Source: Phanerodontia chrysosporium (lineage: Eukaryota > Basidiomycota > Agaricomycetes > Polyporales > Phanerochaetaceae). Taken from it: a stretch of DNA of 64,000 nucleotides. The notes below the pieces were generated by a model. The model was not told the origin of the DNA. It ran no database searches and was given only the letters and a program-made list of their open reading frames with translations. The position numbers and the translations under genes are program-made. Every line of letters begins with the position of its first letter. Positions within the stretch are counted from its first letter, which is position 1. The stretch covers positions 1-64,000 of the forward strand of contig MJGA01000040.1 of NCBI GenBank assembly GCA_001910725.1, written 5' to 3'. Shown here piece by piece: positions 4,618-9,017 of this stretch.

Positions 4618-4775
4618 GGTTTGCAGGTTGGGTGTGGGAGGTGAGGCGAAGGGCAGAGACGCGCGAAGTCGAAGATGGTTTGTGCGCTTGCAGGTCCCGC
4701 CATCAATGCATCAATCCCGACGCTTTCCGCATCCGGACCATACGCATCTCGTCCGTCTCGACTGGGGCATGACTA

Positions 4776-4830
4776 CAGTGCCTTGCATAAAAACCCGCAC
4801 TCTGCTGATTTCCGTGCGATGTTTGTTCTA
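4776..4830 (+). repeat. Left terminal inverted repeat of the transposon
   Basis: Starts CAGTGCCTTGCATAAAAACC directly after the TA at 4774-4775. It matches the reverse complement of 8961-9015 with only a few mismatches over about 55 bp. Weaker similarity continues inward to the GTGACC motif near 4870. Confidence 0.92.
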
Positions 4831-4995
4831 CGCAAATATTACCTTCTTTGGTAGTACCTGGTCACCAATGGTCACAGAAGGTCACACGCCTCTTGCGGAG
4901 TGTGCGCGCGCCGTGCGCGAAGGCAGAGTAATGCAGGCTGCCGTACGTCGACTGCCGAAAGTACCATGCATTTAGAGAGGGAATTACAGTTGTTA

Positions 4996-6055
4996 TCACT
5001 CATAGCCACAGTGTTCAATGAATGCAAGCGCAAGGTCAGGGGTAATACTGTTTGCGGCTTGGTGAATGAGCCATGGGCGGATATCAGCATCGACGGCTTC
5101 GTTTTCGTGGCGGCGAAGCCATGCCTTGATGCTATGAAAGGCTTGCTCGATGGGGTTGAAGTCTGGAGAGTACGGGGGCAGATAGACCAACTTCGCACCT
5201 GAATGTAGTGAGTGGAAAGCCCTGATATATACAACCCTGATACACACCACAGTCATCCACGATAATTCTGCGAACATCCTCGTCATGGTGTATGGCACAG
5301 TTATCCAAGACCACCACGCTATTGCGACCAGGGTACGGGTTGAGTATAGGGGCCTATGAACGCAGTCAGAGCTGACTATTGCACACTTAATAGGGACGCA
5401 CCAGCTGCTCCTTAACGAAAGCTATGAACTTCTCTTTGTTCACGGCACCCTCTATGATATCCAAGGCTATGATGCCGTCTACGGTGAGTGCCGGGAGAAT
5501 GGAGTACCGCTGACCACGGAGGAAGAGTGCACGGCTGACGCATGCACGACCGAGGAAGCTCCAGCCAGCGGTGCGCTGGTTGGTGATGTTATCGACACTT
5601 GCCTCGTCCACCCAGACCTGATATTCCTTTGGAATGGACGCATGTGCTGCCTGCCAAGTCGCACGCAGCAGCTCATTCCGTTCCAACGCCTCGCGGGTGA
5701 GAGACTTATGGGACAGAGCAAGCCGCCGCAGAGCCCGAGAGAGTGTGGCAATCGACACGTTGATGCTACGGTGGCGCAAAACGCGCTCTTGCACCTCGTC
5801 TAGGTAAAGCGTCGGTTGATGCTGTATGAGGTTAGAGATATACGCCAAGTCATCGGCCTTGAGAAGGCGGGGGCGTCCGCGCGGCCGGGCGAGAGGGTTG
5901 GAGACAGTGCCATGCTTCCGGTAGAGTGCGAGAACATCCCAGACGGCGCGCTTTGAGCATTCCGCGAGACGAGCAATCTCAGTCACCGAGTAGTTGTGAA
6001 CTTCGTGCCAGGTGACGATGCTTTGTCGCGTCTGGAGAGAGAGATGTCGCGGCAT
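4996..6055 (-). CDS. Tc1/mariner-superfamily transposase (DDE)
   Basis: Cut-and-paste transposase that would act in the nucleus on the repeats at 4776 and 9015. Exons 6055-5402, 5353-5248 and 5198-4996, with introns of 48 and 49 nt, give 320 residues without a break. Residues 1-60 form a helix-turn-helix (LQTRQSIVTWHEV, VTEIARLAECSKRAVWDVL). An AT-hook-like RGRPR follows near residue 60. The DDE_3-type catalytic core has Asp150 in VWVDEAS, Asp235 in VVVLDNCAIHHDEDV and Glu271 in YSPDFNPIEQAF, with 35 residues between the last two. The last exon ends FIEHCGYE. Length is usual for fungal members. Exact sub-family is not assigned. All catalytic residues are present, so it may be active. Confidence 0.92.
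5199..5247 (-). other. Second intron of the transposase gene
   Basis: GTGTGTATC donor and CATTCAG acceptor, 49 nt. Its removal joins VDDCG to AKLVYLPPYSP. It separates the second catalytic Asp from the catalytic Glu, so correct splicing is needed for activity. Confidence 0.75.
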
Positions 6056-6683
6056 GGCGTCTGCGCAGGCTTACGGTGAGCGTTGCGCAGAAGCGCCCAA
6101 CTGCGTGTTGACTCTCATTGCTCACCTTGCTCGCCTCGTCGTCCCTCGTCGACAACAAGACTCGACGTTCTTCGTGTCTTCAAGGCTGCAGGTCGCACTC
6201 AGCAAGCCCTGCCTAGGTTGGGGCCAGCAAAATCGTACGTTTTTTACTCGAAATATTGCACGATTGCGCTCATGTCGATGCTATGCCGTTTGCAGGCCCC
6301 GCCGTCCACCAGCATCAGTCAAACAACAGCTCTGAGCCCTCGTTGATACGGGACGTGGATACCGCTCCCCCATGGCAGTGCCTCGTGTCTCAAAAACCCG
6401 CTATTTCCTGCATTCTGTGGGGCGGCGGTCGTGCCGTATCGACATCGTCGACACGAATTCACCTTGGCCGGTATCCCCAAAGCTCCGATGTGTACGAGTA
6501 CGTGTTGGTGTGCATGTTCACCGGTGAACTAACAAGTCTGAGCTTCTCACGTAGGCGATTTCCTCGCCGTTGCCCATGGTTGCTCGACCTTGTATAAAAG
6601 CATGCAAGCTGCAGGTGGGTTTTCTGCAGGCTCACTCTGTTGCGCCCTCCAATTTTGACCTCGCTTTCAGTACAACATACAAG
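6056..6683. promoter_or_regulatory. Divergent upstream region shared by transposase and passenger gene
   Basis: A 628-bp region between the two head-to-head genes. TATAAA at 6593-6598, about 90 bp before the passenger start at 6684, fits a TATA box for that gene. I see no clear TATA for the transposase. No third coding region is supported here. Confidence 0.55.
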
Positions 6684-8810
6684 ATGTACAACTCTGCTCA
6701 TAGCCCCTCTCGTTCCCCTTCCCCGCCTTCGTCAATGCTTCAGACGAGGACCAAGCGCTGGGTTCCGTACGCGCCGCCTTCAACTGGTCGTGTGTCGCGT
6801 GAGCCAGGCAGCCGCTCGCCATCGGGGCTCTCCTCCAATGGCCCACAGTCTTCTCAGGCTTCTGGAGGACCGCCTCCCAGTAACAGCACCCACAGAGGTT
6901 GGGTGTATCGCCGCCCTGCATCTGAAGCCTGGCTTCGTCAGCCGGCGTGGATTGGTAAGTCCACTTGGGACCTCACAAGCATGAGTCTGCTGAATTTGGT
7001 TGCAGATGGTGGCGTTGAACCACCCCAGTTCTATGTGTCGCACGAGGAGATCAACGAGACCCTCGTTGCATACGAGCTGCCACCGCTCCCACTTCCTCGT
7101 GGTGCCCCAGCTATGAACGACATCCGCCGGGCTGGACCAAGCATTCAAGTACGCGCACCGACTTCTCCAGCAGCTCCCCCGCACCTGCCTCCGAGTCACC
7201 TCACCGGTGTATTTGGACCTGCGCGCGCCAACAGTGTTGCGCTCGACCCGCACGTTCATGGAGCTGGACATGCACTCCCGGCTGAAGAAGCACCTCATGG
7301 CGACATGCAAGCGTTCAACAATGCTCCGCCTGTCGATGTCGCCCGCCCGACGAATGCTGCCTTGCCGGTTGACGCAGCACCAGTCCCAGCGGCTGCTAAC
7401 GATGATGCGAACACTGCGCAGCCTATCAATGAACCTGTCGGTGAGTGGACTATCCTTCTGTGAGAATTGCCATGGCTGACGTCTCTCGAAGGTGCAGTGA
7501 CTGGACCCGTGGAGGATTTGTACCCTGTGTCCGTTGGCATCTCATACATGAGAGCAAGCTCCGCCAAGCCTGCGTCTCGTGGCAAGCCTGCACCCATGGC
7601 GAAGATGGATGTGAACAAAGTCACTCATATCGCCTTAAACGAGACAACCACTCGTAGTGACTTCATCCGCGCATGCCTGAAGGTCCACGGGCTCGATAAG
7701 AAGTACGCGCTGGATACCGATCTTGGTCCCCGGTTCAGATTCTCGTGGAAAGGTTCAGCGTAAGTGCACGATCTCTGTACAAGTACTATTGACTAACTAA
7801 GTGACAGGGGTGGACGCAGCCGTGCTGCTGCTATCGATACCGACGAGAATTGGAGGGCTACACTTCCCGGCGCTCTCCGTAAGAAGGCTGATATCTTGGT
7901 TGAGTTCGATCTCAAGGATCTCCAGGCCGCCAAGGCAATGCAGGTACGCTCTTTTACTAACTGTGTGTATACATTCTAATCTCGTTTCAGCACCCTATAG
8001 GTGAAGACGAGGAGGGGGACTACGAGCTCCTCTGCGGAACCCAAGTTCCTGCGGTTGAGCAATTCTCAGAGGCCGATCAGCTACACGGGGCAATCATTCT
8101 CAAGCTCAAAAAGCAGTGGAAGTGCATGGATCATTCTGGGGAGCACGGCGAGGACGGCTACTGCTACGTGATCAAGGACACGGACGGTGCCGCTTCGAAT
8201 GTGCACTATGCGCTGAATCCGCGTCGGCTGCGGGACTGGGCTGCCGGCATCGTAAGTGTAGCTTTATTATGTCTGCCAATATGCTAACTGTGTTGTATAG
8301 GCTGCGCACAAGGATACACTGTATATGCCGCCAGCCTCGATTCTCGATGGCGGCCCGCGCAATGTCCAGGGGCCCGATGGCGCCAAGCCGCGTGGGCGCA
8401 CTGGTCCCCGGCCCCCGCCGCTGGGCGCTGCTTCGCCTGCTGTCGATCCGTCAACCCTCATGGCGACAGCTATGGTCCCTCTCGCACTCATGGCCATGGA
8501 ACGCATGAGTGGCATGATGGGCTCTGGAGCCAATCAAGTCACTGGCGCCGCGGGCGCGCCTGCCAATGGTGTACCGGTGTATCCCCGCCCGCGCCCTGGT
8601 CAAGAGCTGCGCTACTGCCTTGTTGCTCTTCACGATACGAAAGGCATAGACTTACTTGCTGCGGAGGGCAAGCTCGCCGAGCATGACTTCACCCCAGATG
8701 TCATCCCTGATGTTCCAGTTGCCCAGCTTGCGGCATTGCTCGGCGTCACCGAGGGTAAGGTTCTCAAGCTTCGTCAATTCTGTGTCCAGTGGCTTGCTCA
8801 GATGAACTGA
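6684..8810 (+). CDS. Transposon passenger gene, 626-aa protein of unknown function
   Basis: Six exons (6684-6954, 7006-7440, 7492-7759, 7808-7943, 7991-8251, 8301-8810) with 47-51-nt GT-AG introns give an unbroken 626-residue product. MYNSAHSPSRSPSP at 6684 is chosen because the TATAAA lies at 6593; an in-frame ATG at 6570 lies upstream of it. The first 230 residues are Ser/Pro/Ala-rich and probably disordered. The middle part includes VTHIALNETTTRSDFIRACL, RFRFSWKG, ENWRATLPGALRKKADILVE and LKLKKQWKC. The last spans C415, H418, H422 and C428 (KCMDHSGEHGEDGYCYV), a possible metal site, followed by LNPRRLRDWAAGIA. The C-terminus is a compact region ending VLKLRQFCVQWLAQMN. I know similar C..H..GYCYV..L..WA stretches only as uncharacterised agaricomycete proteins; that recollection cannot be checked here. 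No transposase or helicase motif is visible. Confidence 0.85.
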
Positions 8811-8960
8811 GGCTTTCTTTACTCTGTACGCCTTCTTGGTACTGTCGAATATGACCTTGTATCTGCAATCCTTCACCTGCGTGACTTGGCGTGACATTAT
8901 CGGCCTCTGCCGCAATCGCCACTGTGACCTGTATTTTTACTGGAAATGGCAATATTTGTA

Positions 8961-9015
8961 CAGAACAAACATCGGACGCAAATCAGCCGAGTGCGGGTTT
9001 TTATGCAAGGCACTG
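8961..9015 (-). repeat. Right terminal inverted repeat of the transposon
   Basis: Ends ...GTTTTTATGCAAGGCACTG immediately before the TA at 9016-9017 and mirrors the left repeat at 4776-4830. Weaker similarity extends inward to about 8924 (GTGACC). Confidence 0.92.
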
Positions 9016-9017
9016 TA

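Follow-up and report, generated by a model that had tools for sequence, protein, structure and literature searches.

The first 64,000 nucleotides of one contig of the basidiomycete Phanerodontia chrysosporium (contig MJGA01000040.1 of assembly GCA_001910725.1; hereafter the window, which is the start of contig C81 in our numbering) raise the question of what a second gene is doing inside a transposon of a kind that normally has one. Between two TA dinucleotides (positions 4774-9017, TAs included) lies a complete DNA transposon, with a DDE transposase gene on one strand and a longer gene, here called the passenger, on the other. An earlier sequence-only reading had left two answers side by side, namely that the passenger serves the element or that it is captured cargo. 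The first is favoured, because a passenger homolog is present in reverse arrangement in a diverged element (C2), the five loci of the genome that match the passenger tail are all elements (5/5), and the second gene of two further relatives (C113 and C57) is under selection. The passenger would thus very probably be an accessory gene integral to the transposon lineage, and not a captured host gene. On balance, it is probable that the locus as a whole is an intact two-gene Tc1/mariner-type transposon, combining a DD35E transposase with an integral accessory gene that would serve as a multimerising cofactor or scaffold.

Architecture of the element and its two genes

The element proper occupies positions 4776-9015 (4240 bp), and its parts follow each other in the order TA, 68-nt repeat, transposase gene (minus strand), 628-bp shared upstream region, six-exon gene (plus strand), repeat and TA. 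The TA target-site duplication stands at 4774-4775 on the left and at 9016-9017 on the right, and TA bounds both ends in all four of the elements with the same ends described below (4/4). With these TAs counted, the inverted arms (4774-4843 and 8948-9017) are 70 nt long and 90% complementary, which leaves terminal inverted repeats of 68 nt, the left one at 4776-4843 on the plus strand and the right one, which pairs with it, at 8948-9015 on the minus strand. At the left end, the likeness to two short relatives runs to ~140 nt. The sequence-only reading had placed the repeats correctly at 4776 and 9015, with TA on both sides, and had given them a length of about 55 bp, which falls short of the aligned arms; the complete 320-aa DDE transposase, the unbroken six-exon gene of 626 aa on the other strand and the upstream region common to both genes, which it had also described, are all borne out by the data given in this section.

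The transposase gene (4996-6055, minus strand) consists of three exons (6055-5402, 5353-5248 and 5198-4996), separated by introns of 48 and 49 nt. Its 320-aa product matches Pfam DDE_3 (E 9.8e-29) and has the catalytic triad D150/D235/E271, giving the spacing DD35E, and its N-terminal matches to HTH_38 and HTH_32 fall below the curated Pfam cut-offs. Thus, the Tc1/mariner features examined are present, namely the TA duplication, terminal repeats around the transposase gene, and a helix-turn-helix-like region with a DDE_3 domain of fixed spacing; the transposase was compared with its relatives in pairs.

The passenger gene (6684-8810, plus strand) has six exons (6684-6954, 7006-7440, 7492-7759, 7808-7943, 7991-8251 and 8301-8810), with GT-AG borders throughout. 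A database protein of 553 aa, P0001, derived from a 3245-base contig, is continuous across all five exon junctions, and differs from the passenger of a second copy on contig C24 by a single residue besides its start, which corresponds to the GTG of codon 74. A gene caller of the bacterial type, which accepts GTG starts and is unaware of introns, needs an intron-free template to yield such a protein. The product of a spliced passenger transcript therefore appears to be the simplest source of P0001; the alternatives are a processed copy and splice-aware calling.

The divergent genes share the 628 bp between them (6056-6683), with a TATAAA at 6593 on the passenger side. Inside this region, positions 6376-6419 (plus strand) align, with gaps, to bases 1-41 of the terminal repeat, and may be an internal copy of the repeat tip, either a relic or a binding site. 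The local score of this match (25) is the 95th percentile of 200 dinucleotide shuffles and so is not significant alone, and no TA directly precedes it in the sequence.

As to the protein, the passenger has no Pfam match over the curated cut-offs (scan to E 1; best E 0.044), and among 52 scanned members of its family no Pfam model rose above chance. Structure prediction gives it, in order, a PB1 fold, a CHCH knuckle and a SAM/HhH-like helical bundle. The predicted PB1-fold domain (7518-7910, plus strand; residues ~245-359, with one intron inside) has, in the model, the strand-strand-helix-strand-strand-helix-strand order of a ubiquitin-like fold, with a conserved I-x-x-D-x-x-F at the second strand pair and conserved lysines before strand 2; the preceding acidic loop is absent. 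Head-to-tail pairing of PB1 domains uses either an acidic OPCA motif or a basic-cluster lysine. The knuckle (8069-8303, plus strand; residues ~397-458, with the intron 8252-8300 at its end) is conserved among the aligned proteins at C in 51/52, H in 52/52, C in 51/52 and H in 49/52. The SAM/HhH-like domain (8604-8804, plus strand; residues ~559-625) is predicted with blocks of local confidence (pLDDT) of 87-98, and its structure matches include the NusA C-terminal, RAD51/RadA N-terminal and SAM domains.

Joint mobility and diverged relatives

The genome comprises 39.0 Mb in 145 contigs. A search of all of it with a 24-mer made of TA and the repeat tip, with up to three mismatches allowed, gave eight matches, all of them exact, forming four complete pairs on C81, C24, C1 and C102; the same 24-mer reversed, as a control pattern, gave none in the 39.0 Mb. 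The copy on C24 is full length and shows 23 differences from that on C81 over 4240 positions (22 substitutions and one gap). It has TA on either side and flanks unrelated to those of the C81 copy, and internal stops are absent from both genes in both copies. Because two full copies sit in unrelated flanks, the passenger travels with the element as one unit, as the sequence-only reading had supposed.

The two other elements are short (847 bp on C1 and 1233 bp on C102). In each, the left end is retained for ~140 nt and the right end for 145 nt (89-92% identity), and the interior contains degenerate sequence from the final exon of the passenger (75-88% identity in DNA). A stretch of 73 nt from the tail of the transposase gene is also present in C1 (75% identity, E 1.2e-5; at protein level the E-value is only 0.29). 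Both elements derive from a two-gene element by internal deletion and must have been mobilised in trans. Since they moved with neither gene intact, the passenger protein is dispensable in cis. The C102 element (C102:1245698-1246930, L031) also contains ~370 bp that are missing from the C1 derivative (element positions ~607-977), perhaps another insertion. Thus, both genes or a passenger remnant are present in 4/4 same-end elements, and transposase-only elements with these ends amount to 0/4 in this genome. The occurrence of transposase-only copies was the test set by the sequence-only reading. Both genes are held by two of the four elements (C81 and C24), and a passenger remnant by the other two (C1 and C102).

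A search of the genome with the transposase produced 19 matches at nine loci, near-complete at six of them (C81, C24, C2, C73, C57 and C113) and fragmentary at C93, C92 and C139. At each of the six near-complete loci (6/6) a second gene lies on the opposite strand, the models at C73, C113 and C57 being drawn by eye, and TA is also found on either side of the elements at C2, C73 and C113. Of these loci, C2 decides whether the passenger belongs to the element. The transposases of C2 and of the window share 42% identity (one exon being omitted from the query), and 44% over the first exon. This element has its own TA-flanked repeats, with 66 of the first 80 positions matching and the tips TACAGCCGTTTGCATAA and TACTGCCGTTTGCATAA, and within them a clear homolog of the passenger (hmmsearch 230 bits; hhalign probability 100% over 316 columns, with 30% identity). 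The gene order is head-to-head in the window and tail-to-tail in C2, C73, C113 and C57. An element as diverged as C2 has the passenger homolog in tail-to-tail order, and the pair has thus outlasted both deep divergence and rearrangement. An insertion is also present in C2, at L062:5422-6886, with 38-nt inverted repeats (CTGTCACGGATGTGACGG...), and is overlapped by a 252-aa minus-strand frame (5355-6110).

The second genes of C113 and C57 are 71-76% identical to each other. Between them, the ratio of nonsynonymous to synonymous substitution rates (dN/dS) is 0.123 (bootstrap 0.082-0.175, 347 codons), and that of the transposases is 0.078 (bootstrap 0.050-0.115, 299 codons); with dS at ~1 both ratios are rough. 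The second gene of this pair is evolving under purifying selection. By eye, a C..H..C..H-like segment and a C-terminal helical-looking segment can be seen in the second gene at C113, C57 and C73. Homology to the passenger, which these motifs may suggest, is not claimed, the profile tests given below being marginal for C113/C57 and negative for C73; therefore a second gene, and not the same gene, is claimed at these three loci.

Role of the second gene

Self-association is known for PB1 and SAM domains elsewhere, and DNA binding for HhH domains of the RAD51 type; the partner of the transposase is therefore best seen as a protein that forms multimers and is bound to DNA or chromatin. In the proposed mechanism, to which we give an even chance, the PB1 and SAM/HhH-like domains of the accessory protein would mediate its self-association, and its knuckle or its SAM/HhH-like domain would bind DNA or chromatin. 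Acting in trans as a scaffold or cofactor, it could then recruit or organise the transposase at the element ends, or could tune the activity or amount of the transposase. We infer that the passenger is transcribed and that its product multimerises, binds zinc and DNA, and affects transposition.

Several observations weigh against this reading. The Foldseek E-values for the passenger model are weak (best 0.015). The C2 passenger is split by the 1465-bp insertion, which has its own repeats; the C57 copy of the second gene has since acquired an in-frame stop, and the far repeat of C57 was not found within the 9 kb read. Against the passenger profile, the C113/C57 second genes score 7.0 and 5.7 bits with hmmsearch, the best of 3000 shuffles reaching 6.0 (L66 ranked first among 3003 sequences and L65 third, with one shuffle outranking L65), and their hhalign probabilities are 14% and 20%. 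The comparison of the C73 second gene with the same profile was negative, and a search with that gene recovered itself alone. Nor was a convincing passenger found at the fragment loci C93, C92 and C139, in 8.0, 7.0 and 9.0 kb read, respectively; the sole match there with an E-value below 0.05, that of P0033 to L067 (E 0.002 over 44 residues), appears to be a chance match and was rejected.

Among the other explanations, the one that survives best, although unlikely, keeps the accessory gene integral and has it act on expression, by repressing or de-silencing the element, rather than on transposition itself. Second genes with regulatory or anti-silencing roles occur in some plant Mutator and En/Spm elements. 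The 628 bp upstream of both divergent genes, with a possible repeat-tip copy inside, would suit such a role, as would the knuckle and SAM/HhH-like domains, which fit a DNA or chromatin protein, and the dispensability in cis indicated by the short derivatives. However, the tail-to-tail genes of C2, C73, C113 and C57 have no common promoter; this order, in four relatives, speaks against any role that would require one. The score of the internal repeat copy is no higher than the 95th percentile of shuffles.

It is improbable that the passenger is cargo, that is, a host gene acquired by the element and useful to the host or to nobody. The passenger, with its six exons, exceeds the transposase in size, and its relatives are named in the database records only as hypothetical host proteins. 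It also shows frequent recent amino-acid changes, with seven nonsynonymous and three synonymous differences between the C81 and C24 copies, against one and five in the transposase. These counts also weigh against the favoured reading, and suggest weaker recent constraint on the passenger; the changed residues (56, 114, 129, 166, 391 and 550) lie outside the three predicted domains in 6/6 cases. On the other side, a search of the genome with the passenger tail gave 11 matches at five loci (C81, C24, C2, C1 and C102), all within elements, and a Trametes homolog used as query gave six matches at three loci, again all within elements (3/3). No passenger copy outside elements was thus found in this genome, in searches that score the best candidates and that a weak host relative could escape. 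The combination that would have favoured cargo, transposase-only elements with these ends and the passenger elsewhere as an ordinary host gene, was sought in this genome and not found. Cargo is also at odds with the homolog of the 42%-identical C2 element, in its different arrangement, and with the passenger remnants in the old short derivatives.

Very improbable is a composite of two single-gene elements with the same ends, adjacent or nested and now moving together by chance, of which the stretch at 6376-6419 between the genes might be a terminal-repeat relic, but that stretch is not significant alone and lacks a preceding TA, and C2 holds the same pair in another arrangement, and therefore the pairing predates the window copy.

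The distribution of the passenger family has been followed in protein databases. Residues 240-626 of the passenger recovered nine proteins, and the conserved region of a Suillus relative recovered 48 clusters, the query included, 45 of which carry an organism name. With profile A1, for which the best 7989 candidates by common words were scored, one protein was added (P0010), and no passenger relatives were found in viral_contigs with profile A1 or with P0005. The 45 named homologs all come from what we take to be Agaricomycetes, an assignment checked for Jaapia, Rickenella and Dentipellis. Two or three clusters each belong to Suillus clintonianus, Paxillus ammoniavirescens, Hygrophoropsis aurantiaca, Mycena leptocephala and Laccaria bicolor, and several clusters per species may fit a mobile gene.

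Known systems and meaning for the lineage

In the part of PMC7325037 that deals with them, Tc1 elements are given a single open reading frame (ORF) and a mean length of ~1300 bp, and mariner elements a single ORF and ~1200-1300 bp; the sequence-only reading gives one gene and 1-3 kb as the norm of the superfamily. Such an element is also present in this genome, on C60, where an ordinary Tc1-type transposon (L069 231-1888, TAs included) has 35-nt TA-flanked repeats and one ORF of 338 aa. Among the 28 genome matches to Pfam DDE_3, this was the locus examined outside the two-gene clade; the DDE_3 matches at C93, C59, C131, C91 and C76 (open frames of 272-341 aa) may be relatives of the C60 element. 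At C139, an inverted repeat pair starting TACAGTCGTGGACAAGCAAAC (L068:2358-2388 and 2950-2980, 561 nt apart) is probably a short non-autonomous Tc1-type element of a different family.

The element of the window resembles typical Tc1/mariner transposons in its TA target, its terminal inverted repeats and its DDE_3 transposase with N-terminal helix-turn-helix-like matches, and differs from them in having 4240 bp and two genes, in place of the single-ORF build of ~1.3 kb, and in the spacing DD35E. Precedent for multi-gene members is given by the ciliate TBE and Tec elements, Tc1/mariner subfamilies with three ORFs and DD34E that are restricted to ciliates (PMC7325037). TBE encodes a zinc finger protein, and purifying selection has been reported on its ORFs, while Tec encodes a site-specific recombinase (PMC7325037). 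These share with our element the presence of extra genes; in contrast, the host here is a fungus and the one extra gene has predicted PB1, knuckle and SAM/HhH-like domains. Two genes are common in PIF/Harbinger and other PHIS elements, which likewise pair a DDE transposase with a second element protein, Myb/SANT (YqaJ in ISL2EU), whose function is called unknown in the relevant part of PMC4482050. These are also two-gene DNA transposons with a separate protein, although the element described here has a TA target and a DDE_3 transposase, and no Myb/SANT or YqaJ among the Pfam matches of its passenger or of the passenger homologs; Myb/SANT is absent from those matches to E 1, and from those of the 52 aligned proteins to E 0.1.

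In the accessible portions of the open-licence literature, including PMC3408717, PMC2836289, PMC5014426 and PMC4457147, we found no fungal Tc1/mariner element described as having a conserved second gene, and no mention of the passenger family as part of a transposon. The main text of PMC3411680, on Laccaria bicolor transposons, in its available portion contains neither 'mariner' nor 'Tc1', and the 'two ORFs' in the pertinent passage of PMC3562529 refer to Harbinger. Thus, multi-gene Tc1/mariner elements are known from ciliates, and a fungal version with this accessory family appears new, pending a survey of other genomes.

A wider proposal can be made tentatively, and we hold it possible though doubtful, that a whole Agaricomycete lineage of Tc1/mariner is two-component, its autonomous members having a PB1-knuckle-SAM partner that would multimerise on transposon DNA and be needed for transposition or limit it. 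Taking into account that a second gene is kept in diverged members, in two arrangements, and is selected in one pair, such a lineage would depend on a partner protein or be governed by it. If true, this would be an exception to the rule that Tc1/mariner transposases work without a partner encoded by the element, and the partner could account for the low copy number, with four same-end elements in 39 Mb. A possible function would likewise emerge for the passenger family, which comprises at least 48 database clusters and for which no Pfam model rose above chance in the 52 members scanned, and elements of this kind may be wrongly counted as host genes in the genomes of mushrooms.

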